A DNA stretch of 33,808 bases from an uncultured Chlorobiaceae bacterium (lineage in GTDB: Bacteria; Bacteroidota; Chlorobiia; Chlorobiales; Chlorobiaceae), in contig CAJAOR010000207.1 in assembly GCA_903942355.1 (NCBI GenBank), positions 1-33,808 on the forward strand, given 5' to 3'. The notes below the pieces were generated by a model that searched no databases, was not told the DNA's origin, and worked only from the letters and a program-made list of their open reading frames with translations. This document shows positions 18,182 to 33,304 of this stretch, piece after piece (position 1 is the stretch's first letter; every line of letters begins with the position of its first letter). Position numbers and translations under genes: made by a program.

Positions 18182-20185
18182 CTATATTCCCAGCTTCTGA
18201 AAAAAAACTTTGTTGCGCATCTTTGCATCCTTCAGAACTTTGTCCCAGCTAATGACTTCAAGATACAAATTGATATTATCCCTCCATTGAAACCACCCCG
18301 AACGGTCAGGCATTGGTTTGAAGTCTTTTTCACGTTCAAGCCATGCTTCGACTTTTGAAGTCAAATCACAAACCACATATCCATAGAACGGGGTGTTATC
18401 CATAACTTGAATCTTGCGTCCTTCGGGCGTTTTATACTTGCCGTCTCTGATGTTGTTGACGTAACGCACAATCTGTTGAACAGGATCTTCCTGCGAAGAT
18501 GGGTTTACAAAATCATCTCGTTGTGGCTTCTTGAACTCAAAGATTGTGATAGGATTACTCGCTTCATTGTCCTCACGAAAAAGAACTCGCTTATTGTAGG
18601 CAATAAGGTCTGGGCGATCTGTTTTCTTTCCATCCAGAGGGATATCGGATGAGACATACGAGCAGAAATTCATTCGTTCATCAATTATCCAAAGATGATG
18701 ATCGTTAAAGGAGGTGATTTCTGTGTCGCCCTTTCGCGGGAAGATAATATCGTGTACTCTGCCCTCTGCTGAATAAGTGCCGGTATCATCAATCTCAAGA
18801 CTTTTGCCAAAAATATCCAGTATTTTACGCCGAAGTGCAATGTAGTGGATCAAGTCGTTTCTGCTCGTATCAGAGATTTTACTAACAATCGCAAGGATAC
18901 TATCCTGTAATTTCTCGAATTTGCTTTCCGCCAGCAATTTTTTAACATCATTTTTGATTTCGATTTCTTGCGCAAACTTTTCTTTCTGAAGCCGAATTTC
19001 AATTTCCTCATTTGATGGGTTATATGGCATCCCACTCAGATCAATCTTACTGAGGATATTCTTGTGCCATGGAGCTTCTTCGTCAACATAGCACTGCACG
19101 CGCTCTTTTTTCTTTTCCTGTCTAAAGGTGATATCAGGGCCAATAGCTTCTTTGGCTGCAGTTGCGGCTTCGCGCTCTATCTCAGTTTGGGATATTCCAA
19201 GAATAAGATCCATTTCAATTTGGAACTCGAATCCTCCTCGCTCCAATGATACATTCCGGTCGAGGTAAGCACTAAATACATAAGCTTTTATAATATAGTT
19301 GCGCTCGCGATCAATCTCGCCAGTTCCATCCTTATCATAAAATTCATCTTCAAACTCTGGGATGTATTTGTGAATCGGATTTCCCGAGACTTCCCGTTTG
19401 TGAGCAACAAGGCTGATCCGACTCTTTTGATTCTTCGGAGCATAGAGTTTGAAAATCCGGACGTGAAACTCTTCCTCAGTATCCGTGGCATGTAGTTTAA
19501 ATATTTTTTTATCAACTACTATTTCCTGTATTACGGCAGCAAGCTCATTGTTGATAAAATCATTTAGTCGGATCATGCCGCTCCCATCCTTTTCCGAAAG
19601 GACAATCTCTGGGCAAATGTAATCCTCTGTAATGAAGTATGGGAGCAGCCGCTCGAACAGATTTCGTGCTATCGTCGAGAGTTTCTTGTCGAAGAAACGG
19701 CCTTTTTTCAAGATAGATAAGGTCACTACGGTACCAGATTCCTGCTGTACACTTGCCTCAACCTTTTCGTTAACGATAATGTCGTTGTCCTTACCCATAG
19801 AGAAACAACGGAGCTTGAGTATGCTACCATCGCAGTAGACACTCCTGACATGAAGATCCTCAAAGTATTTGAGGCAGGTAAAACGGCCAAAGCCTTTACC
19901 GCCTTCATCGATCTTAAGGTCGGTATAGAGGGTGTCAAACGAGTTACAATTCTCATCCGTAAAGCCTATTCCGTTATCCTGTATTTCAAAGCTGCAAACA
20001 TCAGGAAGACTATTATCGAGTTTGATCTGATGGCTTCTTATTGCACGGATAGAGACTTTTCCTTGCATCCTGCTGGCAGCGTCAATTGCCTGAATGGCGT
20101 TAACGGTCATCTCAACAACAGGCGTGTACACTGTGGTATTAGCCCGGATGTTCTCTACCGCTCTTTTGATGTTGACGTTGCTCAT
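18182..20185 (-). CDS. GHKL (HSP90-like) ATPase with C-terminal PD-(D/E)XK-like nuclease
   Basis: A 667-residue protein with an N-terminal GHKL ATPase fold: the N box with Glu25 and Asn29 (VVEMTVNAIQAID), the G1 box DNGIGF (70-75) and the G2 box GGKGFGRFTCLK (95-106). A middle transducer-like part and a Glu/Lys-rich helical stretch (about 385-440) follow. Near the C-terminus PDLIAYNKRV and ITIFEFKKPQRD (Asp about 526, Glu-x-Lys about 549-551) form a PD-(D/E)XK-like nuclease signature. ATP-driven conformational change coupled to DNA cutting would be a natural defence mechanism; this is inference. It lies 98 bp downstream of the restriction-modification operon on the same strand and converges on the frameshifted HNH partner gene. 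I cannot match it to a named system. Confidence 0.8.
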   Translation of the reverse strand: MSNVNIKRAVENIRANTTVYTPVVEMTVNAIQAIDAASRMQGKVSIRAIRSHQIKLDNSLPDVCSFEIQDNGIGFTDENCNSFDTLYTDLKIDEGGKGFGRFTCLKYFEDLHVRSVYCDGSILKLRCFSMGKDNDIIVNEKVEASVQQESGTVVTLSILKKGRFFDKKLSTIARNLFERLLPYFITEDYICPEIVLSEKDGSGMIRLNDFINNELAAVIQEIVVDKKIFKLHATDTEEEFHVRIFKLYAPKNQKSRISLVAHKREVSGNPIHKYIPEFEDEFYDKDGTGEIDRERNYIIKAYVFSAYLDRNVSLERGGFEFQIEMDLILGISQTEIEREAATAAKEAIGPDITFRQEKKKERVQCYVDEEAPWHKNILSKIDLSGMPYNPSNEEIEIRLQKEKFAQEIEIKNDVKKLLAESKFEKLQDSILAIVSKISDTSRNDLIHYIALRRKILDIFGKSLEIDDTGTYSAEGRVHDIIFPRKGDTEITSFNDHHLWIIDERMNFCSYVSSDIPLDGKKTDRPDLIAYNKRVLFREDNEASNPITIFEFKKPQRDDFVNPSSQEDPVQQIVRYVNNIRDGKYKTPEGRKIQVMDNTPFYGYVVCDLTSKVEAWLEREKDFKPMPDRSGWFQWRDNINLYLEVISWDKVLKDAKMRNKVFFQKLGI

Positions 20186-20283: not shown

Positions 20284-23200
20284 TTATTCTGGTATTGGTA
20301 CCGCACGAACAATCGCCAGATCGTTTTCTGAAAGCGAGAAAAGTGCGGAAACACGGGCCTCGATCTGTTCTTTCAGATTAGCTGCGTTACGCATGAAGAC
20401 TGTACGCTGATGAGGTGTTCGAGCTGAGTTCGCAGCATTATTGGCAGCAAAGATCTTTTCCACCAAATTTCCTATAGAAATTTGTTCGTCATCAGATGCT
20501 ACCGGGATTGGAAGATGTTCAATATACTGTTTCCCATGTGAGTAATAACCGCCACGAAATGGACTCGTATTTATACGAACAAAGGCTTCGCTTAATGGAT
20601 GATTTAATACTGCAAGCAGATAGAAATTGCTGAAATTGGCTCCGGGTTTCGACCTGATCATGTAATAGGGGCCATTACCCCCGCCTGTCACCATGATATT
20701 GGCGTCATCATATGCATAGCGCGCTTCGCGAGAGAGAATCGGCAAGATAATCTTTGGCGTAGAAAATTTTGTTAAGCTTTGCGACCGGCCAAACTGATAA
20801 AATTGCCTCTCGGAGACAATCCCGCCTTGAATATTACGGCGTGCTAGTTCCTCCTGACGAGCGCAAAGATATGCCCAGCAACCCGGATAGTTCCGAGCCA
20901 TCGTCTCTGGTTGAATCAACCGGTATGAGTTATGAATGCCATCGCTAATCAATTCATAGGGGAAAATCATCCAGGCATTTGCCTGCGGCCGGGCATAGTT
21001 TAACATTTGGACATCGAGCAAACAGGGACGAAGAAGCGCACGCTCAATTGGCCAATTTCTATTGTTCCAAGAAAGTGAAACTGTGGACAAGTTTTCTTCA
21101 ATACCTGTAAAAATATATATCTTATCCGCACTGGTTTGTACACCAACGAATATTTCAGCAACTTGGCCGAGTTCATCAGGGCACGTTACACGAACACGCC
21201 CGAATAGTTCATTGGTATCTGCATCGGCAAACTGCCAAGTATCTTCCCCAAATCTATTTGCCAATACATTTAAAACTTGACCTGGTGTACCATAACGCCA
21301 AGTTTCAAGTTTTTTCACCCGCTCGACTCGAACGGAGTCTTGACCATGGCGATCTAATACGAGAATACAAGTATAATTTGTAACCTGTAGACCAAAAACT
21401 TGCTGAATACCAAAATGCACGATTTCCTCCAAAAACTTATCCGCCACAATAAGTCTCCGGAGGGCACGCCCAGCTTGGATCGTCATGAATTTATGCGGAA
21501 TTATTACCCCCAGCCTGCCGCCAGTTCTGAGTAATGTCAGTGCTCGTTCAATAAAGAGAGCATATTTATCAAAATTATCTTGCCGTGCAGTCAAATATGG
21601 GGATTGTTGGCTCTTGTAGAATTTCACCTCCTCTGGTGAATACTCCATCATATTTTGAATCCGTATATAAGGTGGATTACCAACAATCACATGAAAACCA
21701 CCCTCCTCCATTTCAATAGGAAACGCATTCCTCCATGTAAATGGATTAATCTTTTCCTGTAACTGAGGAGGCAAAGTACCACATGAGAATGTCCATTCAG
21801 ACTGACAGACTAAGCTATTTCCTGCAAAGATAACATTATCAAGTGATGGTAGCACGGGAATACCGTCTGTGGCCACAAAGTCTTGTAACCCAGTCGCAGT
21901 CTCATTTTCAATAAGTTTAAGCAAAAGGCTAAAACGCGCAACGTCGGTAGCATTGGGATCAATATCAACACCACGAATATGTTTTTGCAGAATCCGCCGC
22001 TTTTCTGCAAAAGTAAGATTCCATTTGCCAGCGGTTCCCTCGTAGATTGTCCGACCAATATGGTTTTCGGAATTATCAGAAAGATACCATGTTAAGTAAT
22101 GATTCAGGATAGCTTCATAAACCGACAGAAGAAACACGCCGGAACCACAACATATATCCGCAACGGTGAACCCGTTCAAATCAACTGGACTTTTGCCGGA
22201 TAAAGATGGCTCCAAAGTGCGCTCAACAATAGCATCGACTATGTAACGAGGAGTTGGCACTACCCCTCCACTATCGCGCAGCTCTGGCTTGTAGATAATT
22301 TCAACTGCACCATCAACAACAGAAATTACCTCACCAAGAAACTGCTCATAAATTTTACCAAGCACTTCAGTCTCAACTACTGAAAATGTATAGGGGCTTT
22401 TGGGGTAATATAGTTCGATGATGATTTCTTGCAGAACGTTGTCACTGATTCGGACTCCTAATGGATCATCATCAATCAAATGAAAAAGTCCGGAATCATA
22501 AAACTCATCTGCCCGACGGAGTTGAGCAATAAGTGCATTGAAGGTATTACTAGCGGGTAAGTTCTTCAGTGTTTCATAACGCTCAATGTCTCGATCTTCG
22601 CAGATGCGCAAAAAAACAATCCGCAACAGAAAAAGTTGAACCACGTAGGTAAGTTCTGTTGGTCCAAGACCCGGAGTATTTGCAAAAATATCCGCAGCTA
22701 ATCGCTCCCGCCATGATCTCACTTGACCAAGAAAGAAACCATCAAATTGTTCAGTCCCTTGCCGTGAAGGGTTATTAGCAAATCGAGCATCAAAGTCACC
22801 GGAATAGACTGCTTGACGTGATAGCATAGCCCAAAGTTCCTCAAAACGCTCAGGGAACTCCTTATATGGGACTAAAAGTATCCGAGCTACATGCACTTCA
22901 TCAGAGCCGGTAGGCTTAGGTAAACAGTCGTATATGGCCAATTGATAAAAATTGGTCAGAACCACTATCGGTAAATTTGCTGAGTACCCATAGCGTCTTG
23001 CCTGAAATGCGGCTTCACGGTTTTTGCCAATACGAACATGAGGCTTTTTTGCCTCAACGAAGAACTTCCGCTGTCGCGCTAAGCGTAATTCGTAATCCGG
23101 CTTTTTTGAAATAGGCTCTTCGTCAACATCGACAGTAGCTTCTTCGATAACTTCGCGTAAAGCGAGAGCATAATTATTTCTATTGTAAACATCCCAGCCG

Positions 23201-23349
23201 AATGCTTCAAGTAGCGGTGTAATAAAGTCTGTACGGGCTTGAGTTTCGTTGTAGACTGATCGCAAATAATCTGCTTCATGATTCTGAAATTTCCGGACCA
23301 GCTCTGTAACGTGTTCTAGTGCGGTGGCTTTGATGCGCTCTTCTGTCAT
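20284..23349 (-). CDS. Type IIG-like restriction-modification enzyme (Eco57I/TaqI-class methyltransferase with N-terminal nuclease)
   Basis: A 1021-residue fused enzyme. The N-terminal nuclease has KKPDYELRL (Asp85) and FFVEAKKPH (Glu99-Ala-Lys101), the PD-(D/E)XK pattern, preceded by LLEAFGWDVYN as is common in type IIG enzymes. A helical segment at about 200-330 leads to the SAM-binding motif I VADICCGSGVFLL (about 395-407) and the catalytic GNPPYIRIQN (about 557-566), which specify N6-adenine methylation. The C-terminal ~350 residues look like a TaqI-type target-recognition domain, including GGGNGPYYMI. Its ATG overlaps the stop of the upstream methyltransferase (23346-23349). Such enzymes usually both cut and methylate one asymmetric site; the recognition sequence is unknown. 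Confidence 0.92.
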   Translation of the reverse strand: MTEERIKATALEHVTELVRKFQNHEADYLRSVYNETQARTDFITPLLEAFGWDVYNRNNYALALREVIEEATVDVDEEPISKKPDYELRLARQRKFFVEAKKPHVRIGKNREAAFQARRYGYSANLPIVVLTNFYQLAIYDCLPKPTGSDEVHVARILLVPYKEFPERFEELWAMLSRQAVYSGDFDARFANNPSRQGTEQFDGFFLGQVRSWRERLAADIFANTPGLGPTELTYVVQLFLLRIVFLRICEDRDIERYETLKNLPASNTFNALIAQLRRADEFYDSGLFHLIDDDPLGVRISDNVLQEIIIELYYPKSPYTFSVVETEVLGKIYEQFLGEVISVVDGAVEIIYKPELRDSGGVVPTPRYIVDAIVERTLEPSLSGKSPVDLNGFTVADICCGSGVFLLSVYEAILNHYLTWYLSDNSENHIGRTIYEGTAGKWNLTFAEKRRILQKHIRGVDIDPNATDVARFSLLLKLIENETATGLQDFVATDGIPVLPSLDNVIFAGNSLVCQSEWTFSCGTLPPQLQEKINPFTWRNAFPIEMEEGGFHVIVGNPPYIRIQNMMEYSPEEVKFYKSQQSPYLTARQDNFDKYALFIERALTLLRTGGRLGVIIPHKFMTIQAGRALRRLIVADKFLEEIVHFGIQQVFGLQVTNYTCILVLDRHGQDSVRVERVKKLETWRYGTPGQVLNVLANRFGEDTWQFADADTNELFGRVRVTCPDELGQVAEIFVGVQTSADKIYIFTGIEENLSTVSLSWNNRNWPIERALLRPCLLDVQMLNYARPQANAWMIFPYELISDGIHNSYRLIQPETMARNYPGCWAYLCARQEELARRNIQGGIVSERQFYQFGRSQSLTKFSTPKIILPILSREARYAYDDANIMVTGGGNGPYYMIRSKPGANFSNFYLLAVLNHPLSEAFVRINTSPFRGGYYSHGKQYIEHLPIPVASDDEQISIGNLVEKIFAANNAANSARTPHQRTVFMRNAANLKEQIEARVSALFSLSENDLAIVRAVPIPE

Positions 23350-25061
23350 ACATTAGAACTTATAGGGGTTTTCCTACCTCTTCGCTTCCTGGCCATACGA
23401 CGATCTCGCATCTTTATCCAGATATCACGCAATGAATTACATTCGACCTCGGACAGCCCCATGTGCCCTCTCAACACAATCCGCGCGTTCTCTTCAAGTA
23501 CATCATCAAGTCGCCCAGAACGAATGAGATGATCGGACTCTTCTAAGGCCATAGCACCATTTAGATTTGCTGGCATCAATAAGCGCTCAGCTTCTTTCGG
23601 TTCGAGTTCTAGAACACCACCGCCATAGCTACGACCTTCGATTTCAGCAGAAGCTGCCGTCATCCAAGTATAGGTATTAGCAATGACCTGTTCTGGCTTA
23701 CCTATCTTACAGGTCATACGGTGAATTGTATCGGTGGATGTCGCGTTGGCTTGATTTAAAACCATACGAGGAAAATCATAAATCTGCCGGAATACAAAAC
23801 CATCAGGCGCCCAGACAGATGGGACTGAATACCATGGTTCGCGTATAGAACATTTATACCCATTATTTACGAGATTATATTCACCAAAGCGAATATAACT
23901 CAACAATGCATCATTGAGCTTGCCGTTCTGAGTGGGAGTAATATGGAGAAGATGTACACGATCATCAGCAGCAGAAAGGTTTTTCCAATCAATGCAACCG
24001 ATCTGCACCCCTTTTAAATGGGTAGAACGAGATACCAATGGAATCGTATAGCCCTCAAGTCCTAGCTGAACAACTTGAGAGCTTGTGAGAACAAAATATT
24101 CGTTTTTTCCGGTTACAACTCCAACATTCACGCTAGCATATTTCGATAAATTTGCGGTTGAAGATGAGTCGCGCAGCTCTCGCATAAATGCGATTTCGGA
24201 TCCAGAGAGAAAGTATTTCAACCATTTTTCGTTATCGTGGCGGATAATCTTCGGCTGTGCATCGGCCAACACTAATTCAGGTATGAAATTTGTAATCTGA
24301 GCAACTGTCCCCACTTCTGTCATTGTCACCCTACAGGTATTCGCCTCTGTTGCTTGAGGAAGTGCTCCGTCAGCTAGTAATAGAACCACTTCTTGTTCAG
24401 CATTTTTAAAGAATAGTTCATTGCATGCGACGATATCGATTCGCTTAAAGCGGTCAGTCAAGAATGAACGCAGTTGTGCCGCATAGCTAACTTGCAAAAG
24501 CTCTGCAGGAAGCACCAGCGCTAGACGGCCCCCGGTTCGCAAACTAGCGACGGCTGCAACCACAAACGGAACCCAAATATTGGTTAGCCGATTGGGGCTA
24601 AGGCCCAATTTAACCATGATTTCCATTGCTAGACTACGATGTGGCTCAGGAAAACTCTGGTAACGAATGAATGGTGGATTTCCAATAACGACATCATAAG
24701 CTGGTTGTGGATTTTGTATCCACCAGCTAAAGAAATCACTTGTCGTCACTACTTCGGAATTATATATCCCAAGTTTCTCGTGCAGTCTTGTGCGGGCACG
24801 ATCCGCTTCTTCTGCATTGATCTCAATACCTTTTAGGCTGTGTGAGATTGCCTGAAAACTTGACCCAAGGTTAATAAACCTATCCATTGCCGCTTCCAGA
24901 AAAACACCATCCCCGCAACTAGGCTCTAAAACTCTATTATCTTGTGACCGGATGGCCCACTGGCAAAGCCAGGATGCAAGATCAATGGGAGTATAGTAAC
25001 CTCCACGTAGTTTATCTAGGCTACCAGCTGTAAACCGATTATTTTGAAGTTGATTTCCCAT
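23346..25061 (-). CDS. N6-adenine DNA methyltransferase (Eco57I/TaqI class)
   Basis: A 571-residue methyltransferase with SAM motif I VLEPSCGDGVFLEAAM (residues 44-59) and catalytic GNPPFIRYQSF (127-137). It has no nuclease motif. The opening KLRGGYYTPIDLASWLCQWA is the usual N-terminal helix-and-YYTP element of this class. The C-terminal half probably holds the target-recognition domain. It ends with a basic tail (RRMARKRRGRK). The gene is coupled to the fused RM enzyme by a 4-bp overlap. It may methylate the second strand of an asymmetric site or protect the host before the fused enzyme is made. It begins with a 1-bp TAATG overlap to a small upstream ORF. Confidence 0.92.
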   Translation of the reverse strand: MGNQLQNNRFTAGSLDKLRGGYYTPIDLASWLCQWAIRSQDNRVLEPSCGDGVFLEAAMDRFINLGSSFQAISHSLKGIEINAEEADRARTRLHEKLGIYNSEVVTTSDFFSWWIQNPQPAYDVVIGNPPFIRYQSFPEPHRSLAMEIMVKLGLSPNRLTNIWVPFVVAAVASLRTGGRLALVLPAELLQVSYAAQLRSFLTDRFKRIDIVACNELFFKNAEQEVVLLLADGALPQATEANTCRVTMTEVGTVAQITNFIPELVLADAQPKIIRHDNEKWLKYFLSGSEIAFMRELRDSSSTANLSKYASVNVGVVTGKNEYFVLTSSQVVQLGLEGYTIPLVSRSTHLKGVQIGCIDWKNLSAADDRVHLLHITPTQNGKLNDALLSYIRFGEYNLVNNGYKCSIREPWYSVPSVWAPDGFVFRQIYDFPRMVLNQANATSTDTIHRMTCKIGKPEQVIANTYTWMTAASAEIEGRSYGGGVLELEPKEAERLLMPANLNGAMALEESDHLIRSGRLDDVLEENARIVLRGHMGLSEVECNSLRDIWIKMRDRRMARKRRGRKTPISSNV

Positions 25062-25467: not shown

Positions 25468-26148
25468 TTACTCAATATTCTCTATACAGTTGCTGCCCTG
25501 ATAGCGGGCATTGTTGACCTGTGTTGATACAGGATACATATCCAGAATGCCATTATCAGCGGGAGCCAGCATCTTCGAAAGATTTACCGGATCAGCTTCA
25601 AGCCACGTTTTCCAGTTTTCGGGTTCGAGAATTACTGGCATTCGGTCATGGAGAGTTGCAATCTGCTCATTTGCCGCAGTGGTGATAATGGTGCATGTAG
25701 TGATTTCGGGCTCTTCGGTATTCTTTGGCTTCCAGGTGTCCCACAGTCCGGCAAATGCCATGAGCAAGCCATCCGCCCGGTGGATGTACCAGGGTTGCTT
25801 CTTTGCACCGTCGATGCGCCTCCACTCATAAAAGCCGCTTGCTGGAATCAGGCAGTGGTTCCGCCCAACCAGATGCCGGTAATAGGGTTTCGAGACCAAT
25901 GATTCAGCCCGTGCGTTGATTGGCCTGATTTTGGGAAGTTCTTTGGCCCAATGGGGAATCAGCCCCCATCGTGCTGAGGTGATCTGATAAGGCTTATGGC
26001 TGGCCTGCAGGATGATAATATCCGTTTCCGGAGGGATGTTGTAACGATTCGTCTGGGGGTAATCCTGATTCTCTTCAAACGGAAGCTCCAGTTGGCGAAG
26101 AAGATCAAGAAAATATTTCAGTTCGTAAAACCCGAATCGTCCGCACAT
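25468..26148 (-). CDS. SOS-response-associated SRAP peptidase (YedK/HMCES family)
   Basis: A 226-residue SRAP-domain protein. YedK/HMCES proteins form a covalent DNA-protein crosslink with abasic sites in single-stranded DNA through Cys2, shielding them until repair. The start is fixed by MCGRFG, whose Cys2 must be exposed after Met removal. The long ORF in the track extends 113 codons too far upstream. Further family blocks are NRYNIPPETD, ARWGLIPHWAK, INARAESL, CLIPASGFYEW (catalytic Glu) and LHDRMPVIL (active-site His). The gene is divergent from umuDC, with a 163-bp shared intergenic region, consistent with joint DNA-damage induction. Confidence 0.95.
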   Translation of the reverse strand: MCGRFGFYELKYFLDLLRQLELPFEENQDYPQTNRYNIPPETDIIILQASHKPYQITSARWGLIPHWAKELPKIRPINARAESLVSKPYYRHLVGRNHCLIPASGFYEWRRIDGAKKQPWYIHRADGLLMAFAGLWDTWKPKNTEEPEITTCTIITTAANEQIATLHDRMPVILEPENWKTWLEADPVNLSKMLAPADNGILDMYPVSTQVNNARYQGSNCIENIE

Positions 26149-26275
26149 ATTTTCCCCTCTTATTTCCGTTGACAAATATTCATGCTCATCACACTCTCTG
26201 TGCAGTAATATAGAACTACGACGAGGTATATGGAATGGCGGCCGCTCTTTTAACCAACTTCCCTTTTCGTCTTCA

Positions 26276-26287
26276 GAATGTATATTC
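26276..26287. promoter_or_regulatory. Candidate SOS operator in the divergent SRAP/umuD region
   Basis: GAATGTATATTC, with GAAT and ATTC as inverted arms 4 bp apart, lies 24 bp before the umuD ATG. The spacing resembles the GAAC-N4-GTTC LexA type, but the LexA motif of this host is not known to me, so this is only a candidate. Confidence 0.3.
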
Positions 26288-26311
26288 CGGTAATGAAAAC
26301 ATGGAAAAACG

Positions 26312-26764
26312 ATGAGACTCACCAGAATACATGCTGGCCCGGTGCTGGACTTCTTCACACCGGACTTCTCAACGCTGCTTGAGCTGCCGCTTGCTGGCAC
26401 TGCTATTGCTGCGGGCTTCCCCTCGCCTGCTGAGGAGTATGTCGAGATCGCGCTTGACCTGAACAAGGAGCTGATCAAGCACCCGGCATCCACCTTTTAT
26501 GCCAGGGTGAAAGGTGACTCCATGGTTGATGCGGGCATTCAGGATGGCGACTTGCTGGTTATCGACAAGGCCCTTGAACCGAAAGAAGGTAGTATTGCTG
26601 TTTGTTATCTTGATGGTGAGTTTACGGTGAAGAGACTGGCTGTGCGGGAAGAGTGCGTGTACCTCATGCCTGCCAATGCAGAGTTCAAGCCGATCAGAAT
26701 CACTGAAGAAAATGAGTTTCTGGTATGGGGACTTGTCGCTTATGTGATTCACAAACCACGGTAA
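26312..26764 (+). CDS. umuD: UmuD-like SOS mutagenesis protein (LexA/S24 autoprotease)
   Basis: A 150-residue S24-family protein. RecA filaments trigger self-cleavage to UmuD', which joins UmuC to form translesion DNA polymerase V. The expected cleavage site is AIAAGFPSPA (Ala34-Gly35). The catalytic Ser70 lies in VKGDSMVDAGI and Lys107 in FTVKRLA. These positions are each ten residues beyond those of E. coli UmuD, so the protein has a slightly longer N-terminus. GGAA precedes the ATG. umuC follows after 24 bp in the same operon. A broken umuD copy lies nearby at 25291-25446. Confidence 0.96.
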   Translation: MRLTRIHAGPVLDFFTPDFSTLLELPLAGTAIAAGFPSPAEEYVEIALDLNKELIKHPASTFYARVKGDSMVDAGIQDGDLLVIDKALEPKEGSIAVCYLDGEFTVKRLAVREECVYLMPANAEFKPIRITEENEFLVWGLVAYVIHKPR

Positions 26765-26788
26765 CCACGGCGCTGGAGATCAACCCCT

Positions 26789-28066
26789 ATGTTCGCTCTT
26801 GTTGACTGCAATAACTTCTATGCCTCTTGTGAGCGGGTGTTCAACCCCGCCCTGCGATTGCGCCCGGTCGTTGTGCTGTCGAACAACGACGGTTGCATTA
26901 TTGCCCGCTCTGAAGAGGCCAAGGCGCTTGGCATCCAAATGGGTATGCCGGAATTCAAGTGTCGCCCGCTGCTCAAGCAACATGAGGTGGCGGTCTTCTC
27001 GTCGAATTATGCCCTTTATGGCGATATGTCGTCACGAGTGATGATGACGCTGGCCGCCATTGCACCTGAAATTGAAGTCTACTCCATTGATGAGGCTTTT
27101 CTAGATATGACGAGCTTCGCGCGGTTCGACCTGACAGAGTACGGCAGGCTGATACGCAGGACGGTCAGGCAGCATACCGGCATTCCGGTCTGTGTCGGCA
27201 TGGCACCAACCAAAACGCTTGCAAAAATTGCCAACCGGCTAGCCAAAAAGAATCCGCACTATCAGGGCGTCTGCGTGCTCGCAAGCCATGCCGAGATCCA
27301 GGCGGCGCTTGAGCGAACAAAGGTTGAGGATATCTGGGGCATCGGGCGGCAGTGGAGCAAGGTGCTTCAGGCAAAGCGGATCGAGAGCGCCGCTGACCTG
27401 GCCGCTGCGCCTGCTGCATGGGTGCAGAAGCACCTGCACATCGTCGGCGCCAGAATTCAGGCTGAGCTGCTGGGCAAATCCTGCCTGCCGATGGAGCTGG
27501 TTCGGCCTGCAAAGCAAAGCATCTGCACTTCACGATCATTTGGCCGGATCGTTACCGACCTGGAGGAGCTGCAGCAGGCAGTGGCGACTTTTGCAGGCAA
27601 GTGCGCAGTAAAGCTACGAAAAGAGAACTCGCTGGCTTCGCTGCTTACCGTTTTTATCGCTACCAGTCCGTTCGATGAGTCGTGCAAACGATACTGGGGA
27701 ACCAGGACGGCTTCCCTGCCCTATCCGACGAGTGACTCTGTTGCGATTCTGCAGGCAGCGCAAACGATGCTTGACGGCATCTTTCGTGCCGGTATGAGCT
27801 ACAAGAAGGCTGGAGTAATTGTTAGTGGAATCGTGCCGCAAGCATCATGCAGCACAACGCTTTCGCTCTTTGCGGAGGAAGCGCCAGCTGCTCCTGAGCG
27901 GGATGGCAGGATTATGCAGGTGATGGATGCGATAAACAAACGCTATGGAAGCGGTGCCGTGCGACTGGCGGCGGAGAACTCAGAGAGCTGGAAGCCTCAT
28001 CAGGAGCGGCTTTCGGCAAGATACACGACACAGTGGGATGATATTATTGAGGTGAAGTTAAAATAG
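26789..28066 (+). CDS. umuC: UmuC-like DNA polymerase V catalytic subunit (Y family)
   Basis: A 425-residue Y-family polymerase, the normal length for UmuC. The active-site carboxylates are in FALVDCNNFYASCE (Asp6) and VYSIDEAFLDM (Asp101, Glu102). The thumb carries a helix-hairpin-helix-like VEDIWGIGRQWSKVL, and the little-finger region follows (about 245-350). TLSLF at about 354-358 could be the beta-clamp binding motif, matching the QLNLF-type peptide. It forms the umuDC operon and is expected to be SOS-induced. The high GC content of this gene relative to the AT-rich defence genes around it suggests a different history. Confidence 0.96.
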   Translation: MFALVDCNNFYASCERVFNPALRLRPVVVLSNNDGCIIARSEEAKALGIQMGMPEFKCRPLLKQHEVAVFSSNYALYGDMSSRVMMTLAAIAPEIEVYSIDEAFLDMTSFARFDLTEYGRLIRRTVRQHTGIPVCVGMAPTKTLAKIANRLAKKNPHYQGVCVLASHAEIQAALERTKVEDIWGIGRQWSKVLQAKRIESAADLAAAPAAWVQKHLHIVGARIQAELLGKSCLPMELVRPAKQSICTSRSFGRIVTDLEELQQAVATFAGKCAVKLRKENSLASLLTVFIATSPFDESCKRYWGTRTASLPYPTSDSVAILQAAQTMLDGIFRAGMSYKKAGVIVSGIVPQASCSTTLSLFAEEAPAAPERDGRIMQVMDAINKRYGSGAVRLAAENSESWKPHQERLSARYTTQWDDIIEVKLK

Positions 28067-28136: not shown

Positions 28137-29018
28137 CTATGCAACGACCAGATATCTATCTGACAAATATTGCTTCCATCTCAATATTTCTTCATTGCCT
28201 TCAATTGCCTGGATGTATCGCTCGTAAGTACATCCGAAGACCTTTTGAGGTTCATTCAGATACGATTGGTATTCCGGGATGACCTTATCGAAATGCTTGT
28301 TCCCTGATGGATAGAGTATAATTGAATAAAAATCGTCAAGTTTATTTTCATTATCAGGACTTAATTGGCACATAGATAAGCCCAGAAGATGGTTTCTCCA
28401 TATCTGCCTCAAATCGTCGCCATGAAGCCTAGGATTATCGGTATCAAGAAATGCCGACGATTGCCGGGTAACCTGCCAGTATCTTGACTGTTTATCTTCG
28501 ACTTTCTTTTTCTCGGTTTTGCCGATTGGATACCCTCTCTCTGTGTACTTTAACTCAATCCCGATGCCTGTTTTCTTTCCCTGACGGTCCGTAAAACTAA
28601 TGAATGTGTCAAATGAAGTGGCATCATCCAGGTAATCACCTTTCGGCTTGGGAGCAAACTCAATCTTGATCTTGTACGGAGCATCGCTCTCCAGGCCAAA
28701 TGCGGTTTTGATAATGTGCTTTGCCAGCGAAGGATCGGTACGAAGCGGAGCAAGCATGTTAAAAGGAATGTGTTCGCTCCGCAGCATATCCCCATCACGA
28801 GATATTGAGTTTTCGGAATACCGCTTCCGAAGCGCCCTTTTAACATTGAGCCCATCGTAATAGTTGTGCAGAGCCTTTGCGTCTGGCTCGGTCAATTTGC
28901 TCCCATATTCGTTGCATTCCATTTGAAGAACGTTGGCTCGATATTGAGATTGATGGAGTCTGGCTGCTGCTTTGAAACTATCGTCAAGAGGGTATGGCTT
29001 ACCGATATCAATCATCAT
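28137..29018 (-). CDS. PD-(D/E)XK-like putative restriction endonuclease (PGN_0703-like)
   Basis: A 293-residue protein. A nuclease signature is visible as SFDTFISF (Asp137), then a beta strand GIGIELKYTE with Glu155-Leu-Lys157, the D...ExK arrangement. The N-terminal basic region (HQSQYRANVLQ, RALRKRYSEN) and the overall length resemble proteins annotated as PGN_0703-type putative restriction endonucleases; this family call is from memory. Two adjacent ATGs (29018 and 29015) can serve as start. It converges on umuC, and the small zinc-protein gene upstream on the same strand is 241 bp away. Three TGTTACG sequences lie in its upstream region. Confidence 0.65.
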   Translation of the reverse strand: MMIDIGKPYPLDDSFKAAARLHQSQYRANVLQMECNEYGSKLTEPDAKALHNYYDGLNVKRALRKRYSENSISRDGDMLRSEHIPFNMLAPLRTDPSLAKHIIKTAFGLESDAPYKIKIEFAPKPKGDYLDDATSFDTFISFTDRQGKKTGIGIELKYTERGYPIGKTEKKKVEDKQSRYWQVTRQSSAFLDTDNPRLHGDDLRQIWRNHLLGLSMCQLSPDNENKLDDFYSIILYPSGNKHFDKVIPEYQSYLNEPQKVFGCTYERYIQAIEGNEEILRWKQYLSDRYLVVA

Positions 29019-29259: not shown

Positions 29260-29481
29260 TCACCTCTGCAGCCTCTCAGCCATTTCCTGAAGCTTCGCAA
29301 TATCTCGATTGATGATGTCGATGGCGCAAGTAGCACAGTAGTGTTCGTTTGACCTACCATCAGAAACCTTCAAGCGCTTGTCGCCACTCATAACACGATG
29401 TGCTGCATTGTGTTGACAATTATGTGCTTTTTTAGCCTCGTCTACCTCCACTCTCTGTAGAATTGATTTCGGTCTAGGCAC
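29260..29481 (-). CDS. Small zinc-finger-like protein coupled to the helicase gene
   Basis: A 73-residue protein starting at GTG 29481. That start has a strong ribosome binding site (GGGAGG six nt upstream) located inside the end of the helicase gene, and the two genes overlap by 8 bp. The track's longer ORF is thus too long. AHNCQHNAAHRV and EHYCATCA give Cys, His and Cys-x2-Cys ligands suited to one zinc ion. A short helical tail follows (IAKLQEMAERLQ). Tight coupling suggests it works with the helicase, perhaps as a nucleic-acid-binding subunit. The family is not recognised by name. Confidence 0.7.
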   Translation of the reverse strand: MPRPKSILQRVEVDEAKKAHNCQHNAAHRVMSGDKRLKVSDGRSNEHYCATCAIDIINRDIAKLQEMAERLQR

Positions 29482-31270
29482 TGAATACCTCCCTTTGTGC
29501 AGCTTCTGACAATTCCGAAAATCTCTCGTTGATGGTATCAAGCTGAGTACGAGTAAATTCGGCACGCCGCCCTACACCAAGTCCTACCGCCGCTGCGATG
29601 TGCCTATCAATCGCAGCCTTCAACACTACAAAGTTCGTTCTCCGGTGACTATGAGTATCAAGGTCAAAGCCAGAAGAGTTTATACCACGAGCATTTAGTA
29701 TCAGTCCGACCTCAGTACGAACACGCATGTCCAAGCTAGACCGTGCTGCTTGTCGTTGCCTTACCCTAGTGGTAGGTATCGGTTGCAACTCCATCACTTG
29801 ACGAACTGCATCTGCAGAATAACCTCGTTCCTGAAGCATACGAATAGCCTGCATAGCTTCGGAATCTCCTTGAATAAGCGGTATTTCCTCTACTGTTACG
29901 CCTGATTGTCCTCGGACGTTCACAGTGTTTATGGCTCTGGCGACAGGCGTTGCTGTAATTTCGTTAGAGTGCGAGAAATCCAGTCCCTCCAAGGGCAGAA
30001 GCTGATCGAAAAACTCTTGGTCAGCCTCGCTATATTCCTGAAAATCCTGCCACCTTTGAGCAACGTTCGCTCCAGCATGAAAAACAACAGTCCCTTGATT
30101 CAAAGAATGCTGACTGTCATTCTGTACGATCACACGCATGATACGTCCAACAAACTGAACAAACGGTGACAGGTTAGAAAAGATGCTGAATACTGCTGCA
30201 ACTGACAAGTATGGATGGTCAAAGCCTTCTCCCAACTTTCGAACTTGCACAATAACGTCCAGTTGATGGTTCTCCAACTGCGAAAGCACTCGGTCATTCG
30301 CGGCTGACGCTTCACGACTGTGAACGTAGTCAGCGCGACGCCCTCGGGCTCGGTAGGCTTCCACGATCTGCCGACAGTGTTCAAAGTTGAGGGCTGACGC
30401 AATAATCTTAACCCTATTATCAGCGGTCTCAGTGCGAATTCGATCAAGTTCGCGTATAGAAGCATCCACGATAGTGTTCAGTGTCTCCAATGAGGTAACA
30501 ATACTCCGGCGGAAGTCGGCGTCCTCCTCCCCAAGACGACGCACCTCTTCCAGCGGAACTACGATCTCCTGATCATCCTCTCGTCGAACATAACTCAATG
30601 TCCGAGGGTTTAGCACGAGAGCCTTTAGGCGTTTGATATAGCCCTCCTGAATAGCCCGAAATACTGGGTATGAGTAGATGATACTGCCAGCCATCCTTTG
30701 ACCATCAGCACGAAGAGGTGTTGCACTCAGGTTGATGATGCGTGCCCTTGGAAATCTTTGCTTCAGGGAATCCCATGTTGCAGCCACACTGTGATGTCCC
30801 TCATCGAAAAGTATGAGATCAAAAAAGTCATCTGGAAGAGAGCTTAGCCATCGATTTTCCTCACCTTGAAGCTGCTGAATGTTAGTGACAACAACATCCG
30901 CTTCATCAAGGTCGCCAAGGTTAGTCGTGGTACCACGAATCTCGACAGGCTCCGGGTATGGCGGAACTGTAAGGACACTAGTTCTTAAGTAGAACATTTG
31001 TGGTTGTGTCGGATCAAAATCTTTGTACAGTTGATCCGCAATTCGAAGCCCAGGCGCAATAACAAGAGTCCTGTTTGCTTGGAAAGCGAAGGGAGCAAGC
31101 GCAATACATCCCGATTTACCACAACCCACAGGCAGAACAATGCCTGCCTCGCGTTCGCATTCTGGGTTCAAAGCAAATTCCTGTAGTGCTGCAAAAGCCT
31201 CTCGTTGAGGAATACGCAATTGCATATTCCCTATGATGGCCGGTTGACGCGTCTCAAAAAAATTACTCAC
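29474..31270 (-). CDS. SF2 DEAD/DEAH-type helicase (type III Res-like)
   Basis: A 598-residue superfamily 2 helicase or translocase. Motif I is PVGCGKSG (residues 47-54), motif II FDEGHH (about 155-160), motif III LSATPLRADG (about 180-189) and motif VI QFVGRIMR (about 374-381), with motif V-like GEGFDHP before it. The two RecA-like domains account for about residues 15-400. The C-terminal ~200 residues contain LQERGYSADAVRQVMELQ, a UBA-like or small helical element, and an uncharacterised tail. No nuclease or methyltransferase domain is fused. With its small coupled partner and the nearby nuclease it looks like a defence module rather than a complete type III restriction system, since no mod gene is present. 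Confidence 0.87.
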   Translation of the reverse strand: MSNFFETRQPAIIGNMQLRIPQREAFAALQEFALNPECEREAGIVLPVGCGKSGCIALAPFAFQANRTLVIAPGLRIADQLYKDFDPTQPQMFYLRTSVLTVPPYPEPVEIRGTTTNLGDLDEADVVVTNIQQLQGEENRWLSSLPDDFFDLILFDEGHHSVAATWDSLKQRFPRARIINLSATPLRADGQRMAGSIIYSYPVFRAIQEGYIKRLKALVLNPRTLSYVRREDDQEIVVPLEEVRRLGEEDADFRRSIVTSLETLNTIVDASIRELDRIRTETADNRVKIIASALNFEHCRQIVEAYRARGRRADYVHSREASAANDRVLSQLENHQLDVIVQVRKLGEGFDHPYLSVAAVFSIFSNLSPFVQFVGRIMRVIVQNDSQHSLNQGTVVFHAGANVAQRWQDFQEYSEADQEFFDQLLPLEGLDFSHSNEITATPVARAINTVNVRGQSGVTVEEIPLIQGDSEAMQAIRMLQERGYSADAVRQVMELQPIPTTRVRQRQAARSSLDMRVRTEVGLILNARGINSSGFDLDTHSHRRTNFVVLKAAIDRHIAAAVGLGVGRRAEFTRTQLDTINERFSELSEAAQREVFSA

Positions 31271-32221: not shown

Positions 32222-32275
32222 ATGTTCAATTATTTGCTATGTTCAAATTAAATGAACAAAAAATATATTGAACAT
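32222..32275. promoter_or_regulatory. Operator-like repeats at the AbiE promoter
   Basis: ATGTTCAAT (32222-32230) is repeated as ATGTTCAAA (32239-32247) and occurs inverted as ATTGAACAT (32267-32275), just inside the coding region. AbiEi antitoxins are known to repress their own operon through repeats at the promoter, so these are likely binding sites. Confidence 0.5.
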
Positions 32276-33304
32276 AAATTAGCCGGAGACAATGAAGAAA
32301 TCTTTCGGCGGGCTATGGAAGCCCTGAAGACAATCGCTCCACTGGAATACGCGATTGAACCGTGTCACGTCCTTCATGACCAAGGATACGAATTCTTGAT
32401 GAGGGGAAAAGTTTTCGGGAACGCATTCGTCTGGTGCATCGTGGTAAAAAAATATCTTACCAAAACCGACGAACTCCAGGTTCTCGTAAACAGGGATAAG
32501 ATGCCACATCCATTTGTGCTGGCGACAAGATACATTCCCCCTGAGACCGCGGCAAGATTGCGCGATACCGGCATCCAGTTCATCGACACGGTCGGAAACG
32601 CCTTTCTCAATCAACCTCCACTGTTGATTTTCGTTCAAGGAAATAAACCGGAAAAGGAAGAAATCGTTCTTCCCACAGCTCGTATCTTCAGAGGAGTTGG
32701 CCTGAAGATCGTCTACCTCTTTTTGTGCCAACCGGAACTGGTCGAGAAAACGTATCGCGATCTGGCCTGGATGGCGAATGTCGCCTTGGGAACGGTGAAA
32801 AGCACCATGACCGAACTGATCCAGAGAGGCTTCATATTCGACATGGGCAAAAAGGGAAAAAAGCTCCTGGATAAAAAGAAGCTCTTTGAGCGCTGGATTG
32901 CTGCGTATCCCGACTACTTAAAACCTAAACTGTTGATGGGGCGATTCCGGGGTGATGGGGAGTGGTGGAAGGACATCCAACTGGATCCCGCTGTCGCGCA
33001 ATGGGGCGGCGAGGTTGCCGCAGCGAAACTGACCGGATACCTGAAACCTAGCACTGTAACACTGTATGCGGACAAGCATCGTCTCGGAGAGCTCGTGGTC
33101 GCCAATAGACTGATAAAAGACCCGCACGGCAATATAGAGATTCTCGAACGGTTCTGGCCGCTGAACAATGACTTCGGTGACGGCGATACGGTGCACCCGA
33201 TCATCATCTATGCTGACCTTGTCGCCATCGGCGACCAACGCACAACGGAAACCGCAAGAATAATTTATGAACAACATATCGATCAATATTTCAGGCAGGA
33301 TTGA
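32252..33304 (+). CDS. AbiEi-family antitoxin (type IV toxin-antitoxin)
   Basis: A 350-residue protein. The middle portion carries IQFIDTVGNAFLN (about residues 108-120), the D-x-x-GN element of AbiEi-type proteins. A winged helix at about 161-195 follows (YRDLAWMANVALGTVKSTMT), the DNA-binding part used for autorepression. The C-terminal domain should neutralise the toxin. Repeated ATGTTCAA sites lie at its promoter. The next gene is a nucleotidyltransferase that overlaps its end by 38 bp in another frame, the expected antitoxin-toxin order. Identification is by motif and context. Confidence 0.8.
   Translation: MNKKYIEHKLAGDNEEIFRRAMEALKTIAPLEYAIEPCHVLHDQGYEFLMRGKVFGNAFVWCIVVKKYLTKTDELQVLVNRDKMPHPFVLATRYIPPETAARLRDTGIQFIDTVGNAFLNQPPLLIFVQGNKPEKEEIVLPTARIFRGVGLKIVYLFLCQPELVEKTYRDLAWMANVALGTVKSTMTELIQRGFIFDMGKKGKKLLDKKKLFERWIAAYPDYLKPKLLMGRFRGDGEWWKDIQLDPAVAQWGGEVAAAKLTGYLKPSTVTLYADKHRLGELVVANRLIKDPHGNIEILERFWPLNNDFGDGDTVHPIIIYADLVAIGDQRTTETARIIYEQHIDQYFRQD

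Follow-up and report, generated by a model that had tools for sequence, protein, structure and literature searches.

An SF2 helicase gene and its small, translationally coupled partner gene, predicted to encode a PARP-like zinc finger

Results

A helicase gene overlaps a small downstream gene

The window—the whole 33,808-nt stretch of Chlorobiaceae DNA that we analysed—carries an SF2 helicase/translocase gene whose 3’ end overlaps the start of a gene for a 73-aa protein on the same strand (Table 1). A preliminary description, drawn from the letters of the sequence, had placed a strong ribosome-binding site for the small gene inside the helicase gene, reported an 8-bp overlap between the two and held that the ORF track misses the true start of the small protein. 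All three points were borne out. The mechanical ORF list places the start of the small-gene frame 84 bases upstream, at another GTG (29565, 101 aa), and homologues back the internal, 73-aa start instead. G-rich ribosome sites occupy the equivalent position in most homologous loci, and the exact overlap recurs in 17 of the 30 loci with a readable start (L004, L009-L011, L015-L018, L020-L023, L026-L029 and L031), the other start offsets being -1, -11, -14 and +4. Promoter and terminator scans returned no matches above chance.

Table 1 Features of the gene pair and its surroundings in the window.
Feature	Position	Strand	Remarks
SF2 helicase/translocase gene	29474..31270	minus	598 aa, GTG start; TAG stop at 29476-29474
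Zinc-finger partner gene (predicted)	29260..29481	minus	73 aa, GTG start at 29481
Overlap of helicase stop (TAG) and small-gene start (GTG)	29474..29481	minus	8 bp, GTGCCTAG
Shine-Dalgarno GGGAGG	29493-29488	minus	within helicase gene, 6 nt 5’ of the small gene’s GTG
PD-(D/E)XK nuclease (PDDEXK_13 / REase-ARP)	28137-29018	minus	just downstream of the pair
SRAP peptidase gene and UmuC-type polymerase gene	25468-28066		1-4 kb from the pair
Type IIG restriction-methylation enzyme and adjacent second adenine methylase	20284-25061	minus	
GHKL-type (HATPase_c) ATPase-domain protein	18182-20185	minus	667 aa; inside defence-rich region
AbiEi-type antitoxin/regulator gene	32252-33304	plus	partner may lie past window end

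The small gene is conserved and under purifying selection

Helicase homologues in genome contigs (n = 31; 45-86% identical to the window helicase) came from Nitrospirae, Pseudomonadota, Bacillota, Actinomycetota, Bdellovibrio, Myxococcales and other records. In all 31 loci the gene directly downstream encodes a homologue of the small protein, the copy at L030 being frameshifted near its start; the small gene is therefore real, and chance is excluded. Both genes evolve under purifying selection, with dN/dS values of 0.09-0.25 for the small gene and 0.05-0.09 for the helicase, so that the possibility raised at the outset, an untranslated 73-aa ORF, falls away. The Cys/His set that had been ascribed to the protein is likewise retained: C22, H28, C49 and C52 are each present in 29 of the 30 sequences, and H20 and R43 in all 30. 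Pairwise divergences of helicase and small protein are correlated (r = 0.74; none of 2000 permutations as high), which is the expectation for co-inherited genes.

Helicase and partner co-occur in both search directions

Since the 31 loci had been picked via the helicase, we also searched in reverse from the small protein. By profile search, each of the 31 whole genomes holds exactly one small-gene copy, at the helicase. All 14 plasmid records with a match to the small protein also have a helicase match at that position, and the two copies that its profile found in 399 Pseudomonadota genomes both sit beside a helicase. The helicase profile, in turn, matched three times in 399 Pseudomonadota, six times in 399 Bacillota and once in 297 Actinomycetota genomes, counts that include the seed genome (one match per phylum), and every one of these matches has a small partner downstream; 10 of 10 close helicases in viral contigs have the small gene. 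Homologous helicases generally lacking the small gene, the outcome that would have spoken against the preliminary description, are thus not what we found: all checkable members have a small gene downstream. The two genes are translationally coupled and obligately paired, and the proposal of a helicase with a dedicated zinc partner gains support from this co-occurrence, from purifying selection and from the confident zinc-finger model described below. No natural fusion of the two proteins was found.

The pair is patchily distributed over plasmids, prophages and many bacterial phyla. It was absent from all 24 other genomes of the window’s own genus and was therefore probably acquired horizontally here; in other genome samples, it occurs about once per 60-400 genomes. 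No close relative of the pair from the Salmonella plasmid was found in E. coli genomes, and phage genome records matched neither the helicase nor the small protein. In several plasmid records (for example, L037, L039, L041, L042 and L048) the small gene is unannotated.

The helicase retains an intact motor core

Pfam assigned the helicase to ResIII (8.5e-25) and Helicase_C (1.2e-06), and its motifs—GCGKS (Walker A), DExHH, SAT and QFxGRxxR—were invariant or nearly so across 28 homologues. The C-terminal region is helical, family-specific and without a nuclease motif, and no nuclease domain was found in the window helicase. Only C50 (within Walker A) and C299 are invariant cysteines in the helicase alignment, and the partner may supply a zinc finger in trans to a helicase without one of its own.

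A structure model of moderate confidence (pLDDT 75) placed RadD as the nearest solved fold, with XPB and an HsdR fragment also among the nearest. Likeness to RadD (YejH) of E. coli concerns the SF2 motor core; full-length similarity is absent, the NCBIfam RadD model (NF053632) scoring 39.6 bits against a cut-off of 720. RadD, a chromosomal repair gene product, carries two cysteine zinc fingers in its own chain, whereas here a CHCC set resides in a separate protein. In RadD, both ATPase and zinc finger are required in vivo, as neither the C437A (zinc cysteine) nor the K37R (Walker lysine) mutant rescues UV sensitivity (PMC9049331). Archaeal XPB-Bax1 likewise joins an SF2 DNA motor, matching in the helicase core, to a separate partner protein; Bax1, however, is a nuclease rather than a small zinc finger.

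With type I/III restriction R subunits and PbeA-like defence helicases, the likeness lies in the helicase core, and the matches are to the motor only; in PADLOC-DB 2.0.0, too, the helicase matched motor regions alone, and the small protein matched nothing. Unlike type I systems, the pair has no nuclease domain in the helicase and no conserved HsdM/HsdS partner; unlike type III systems, it has neither a conserved Mod gene nor a nuclease domain. The misfit with type I or III restriction noted at the outset is upheld by the comparison of loci, across which the pair has no methyltransferase, specificity or nuclease domain as a constant companion.

The partner’s predicted fold resembles PARP-type zinc fingers

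Conservation of the residues points to C22, H28, C49 and C52 as putative zinc ligands of the 73-aa partner, which is predicted to end in a long C-terminal helix. The structure model is confident (pLDDT 92). The best 21 matches in a Foldseek search against the PDB were the Zn1/Zn2 fingers of PARP1 and the finger of DNA ligase III (probability 0.85-1.00); their E-values of about 0.1-1.3 are weak, as is usual for a 70-residue protein. Viral structure matches included proteins named PARP-type. Comparison of the family profile with three PARP-type fingers gave an E-value of 0.004 (none of 100 column shuffles as high), and the profile alignment is colinear, pairing C22 with C21, R36 with R34 and C49-C52 with H53-C56 of PARP1; subsets of the small-protein family did not stand out in this comparison.

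Relative to PARP-type fingers (PF00645; PARP1 Zn1/Zn2, DNA ligase III), the small protein is predicted to share the fold and has in common the order of the four ligands, an I-x2-G-x2-R stretch and Y-[HC]-x2-C. It differs in its spacing (C-x5-H / C-x2-C as opposed to C-x2-C / H-x2-C), in a shorter loop and in being a stand-alone bacterial protein. Pfam zf-PARP (PF00645) matched 1 of 33 members, at an E-value of 0.01 under the gathering cut-off. A zf-PARP search of 200 genomes gave zero matches, its controls included, and is therefore uninformative on absence. No family in Pfam, NCBIfam, PADLOC or PHROG covers the window’s small protein, and a PDB sequence search with the small-protein family returned chance-level matches only. 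From the confident model, the fold matches and the profile comparison, a PARP-type finger fold is likely; support from sequence is weak, and membership of PF00645 is not established. The fingers of PARP1 and DNA ligase III bind DNA at nicks and ends. PARP-1 fingers recognise single-strand breaks (PMC4678113).

Three helicase branches carry two partner types

The helicases fall into three branches. Branch 1, the window’s own, pairs with small proteins of the C-x5-H / C-x2-C pattern. Helicases of branch 2 (about 31-42% identical; Rhizobium, Mesorhizobium, Paracoccus and Rhodococcus) are longer, with an extra N-terminal MerR/HTH_17 DNA-binding domain, and their partner is a divergent, usually unannotated zinc protein, often of C-x2-C / C-x2-C spacing, which is near that of PARP fingers. 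Profile comparison links the branch 2 and branch 1 small proteins (E 1.4e-05). Branch 3 helicases (about 29-34% identical; Bacillus relatives within Bacillota, Leptospira and Pasteurella) are coupled to a different small protein of roughly 104-150 aa without the zinc set (L044-L047, L096, L098-L100 and L125-L129); these proteins have a W-x-R or F-D-R motif in common, and two of them match a PHROG without assigned function (phrog_12848). Similarity between the zinc and zinc-free partner types was not detectable. With partners in all three branches, the rule is thus a helicase plus a small coupled partner, of two types.

Zinc ligands are partly or wholly lost in the partners of L019 (5470-5721), L042 (6842-7081) and L101, beside intact helicase frames; zinc is therefore not needed everywhere, as these few lineages illustrate. 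Separately, a stop codon interrupts the helicase gene of L018 (6001-7806, a Eubacterium MAG), and on the Zymomonas plasmid pZZM404 (L036) the helicase gene is in pieces and the partner lacks its first cysteine.

The pair resides in defence-rich neighbourhoods

At the genome loci, 122 neighbour ORFs gave 229 PADLOC model matches (E 1e-10), compared with 14 for as many ORFs taken from randomly chosen stretches in a subset of these genomes; because PADLOC models are redundant, the ratio overstates the gene number, but the direction is clear. This is guilt by association. Methylases (6 ORFs) and kinases (4) are among the matching neighbours, and integrases, resolvases, BsuBI/PstI enzymes, HTH-peptidase regulators, an AAA-HNH pair like Septu, a ThsA-like SIR2 protein and a DndB-like protein also occur. 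The kinases are PD-T4-6/Stk2-like Ser/Thr kinases (L026, L028, L029 and L031); that of L028 lies directly upstream of the pair, and related actinobacterial loci have similar-sized ORFs upstream.

No neighbour is common to all helicase loci. In enterobacterial mobilizable plasmids of 5.9-6.2 kb, the rep, helicase and small genes all overlap in that order, and beyond the pair these plasmids carry only rep, mobilization and toxin-antitoxin genes. Hence, the pair forms a complete unit. The window’s PD-(D/E)XK nuclease was considered as a third subunit and rejected, being absent from all other helicase loci; it is apparently a separate system.

Discussion

We favour, at about even confidence, a reading of the pair as a two-part machine: a split helicase/translocase that senses DNA breaks or branches and most likely serves as a stand-alone defence module. 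The physical complex, the sensing of a DNA structure (a break) and the anti-phage or anti-plasmid outcome are what we infer. The helicase would be an SF2 motor driven by ATP and akin to RadD, XPB and type I HsdR, without its own zinc finger or nuclease, and coupled translation would provide near-equal amounts of the two proteins. The PARP-like finger would bind the motor, probably via the motor’s helical C-terminal region or the small protein’s long helix, and steer it to DNA bearing an end, a nick or a branch. After loading, the motor would translocate on or remodel that DNA, disrupting replication or packaging intermediates, and a phage or plasmid would be blocked without DNA cutting.

The strongest competitor, though clearly the less probable one, is a RadD-like recombination or repair helper on mobile elements, which would process breaks in the element’s or host’s own DNA instead of attacking invaders. 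RadD and XPB being the closest folds of the helicase, PARP-type fingers belonging to repair proteins and the UmuC-type polymerase and SRAP genes lying nearby in the window all speak for it; the patchy presence of the pair, down to none of 24 congeneric genomes, and its defence-gene-rich surroundings argue against.

We regard two further alternatives as improbable, and to a like degree. The rep-helicase-small order on the enterobacterial plasmids would suit an accessory role in replicating or maintaining small plasmids, with the pair in the operon of the replication initiator, yet rep is not adjacent at most loci, and many loci are chromosomal or on contigs classed as viral. A toxin-antitoxin-like arrangement, with the small protein holding a harmful helicase in check, would account for a small coupled partner, a mobile distribution and two alternative small partners. 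Antitoxin genes, however, usually come first and the partner gene comes second; a zinc finger would be an unusual antitoxin, and at L019 an intact motor persists beside a partner with lost zinc ligands. Very improbable is membership of the pair, as one subunit, in a larger system that includes an adjacent PD-(D/E)XK nuclease or restriction-modification operon: the nuclease follows the pair on the same strand in the window, and directly upstream lie a methylase and BsuBI/PstI endonuclease in L015 and an adenine methylase and DpnII endonuclease in L048, but the nuclease recurs at no other helicase locus, restriction neighbours vary in type and are absent at most loci, and small plasmids carry the pair without nuclease or restriction genes.

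Extending the reading of the pair as a defence machine to all branches, we tentatively propose—as a possibility that we rate below that reading itself—a widespread family of non-nucleolytic immune helicases in which an interchangeable, coupled small subunit would set specificity. Most branches would use a PARP-like finger that senses breaks, and another branch an unrelated helix-plus-strand protein without zinc.

Neither the pair nor its accessions turned up in literature searches, and the main text of the DefensePredictor paper names no helicase-zinc-finger pair, the abbreviation ‘ZF’ appearing in a figure legend. Because the pairing is universal where checkable and undescribed in the sources searched, it is more than a curiosity. 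For annotation, the lesson is that a small coupled gene goes unannotated in several plasmid records. Because one partner fold is exchanged for another, one can test whether target choice is set by the small subunit. If the favoured reading is true, the subunit by which bacteria and their mobile elements aim a helicase would be a separate PARP-like finger that senses DNA damage, an arrangement undescribed in the libraries and papers searched.
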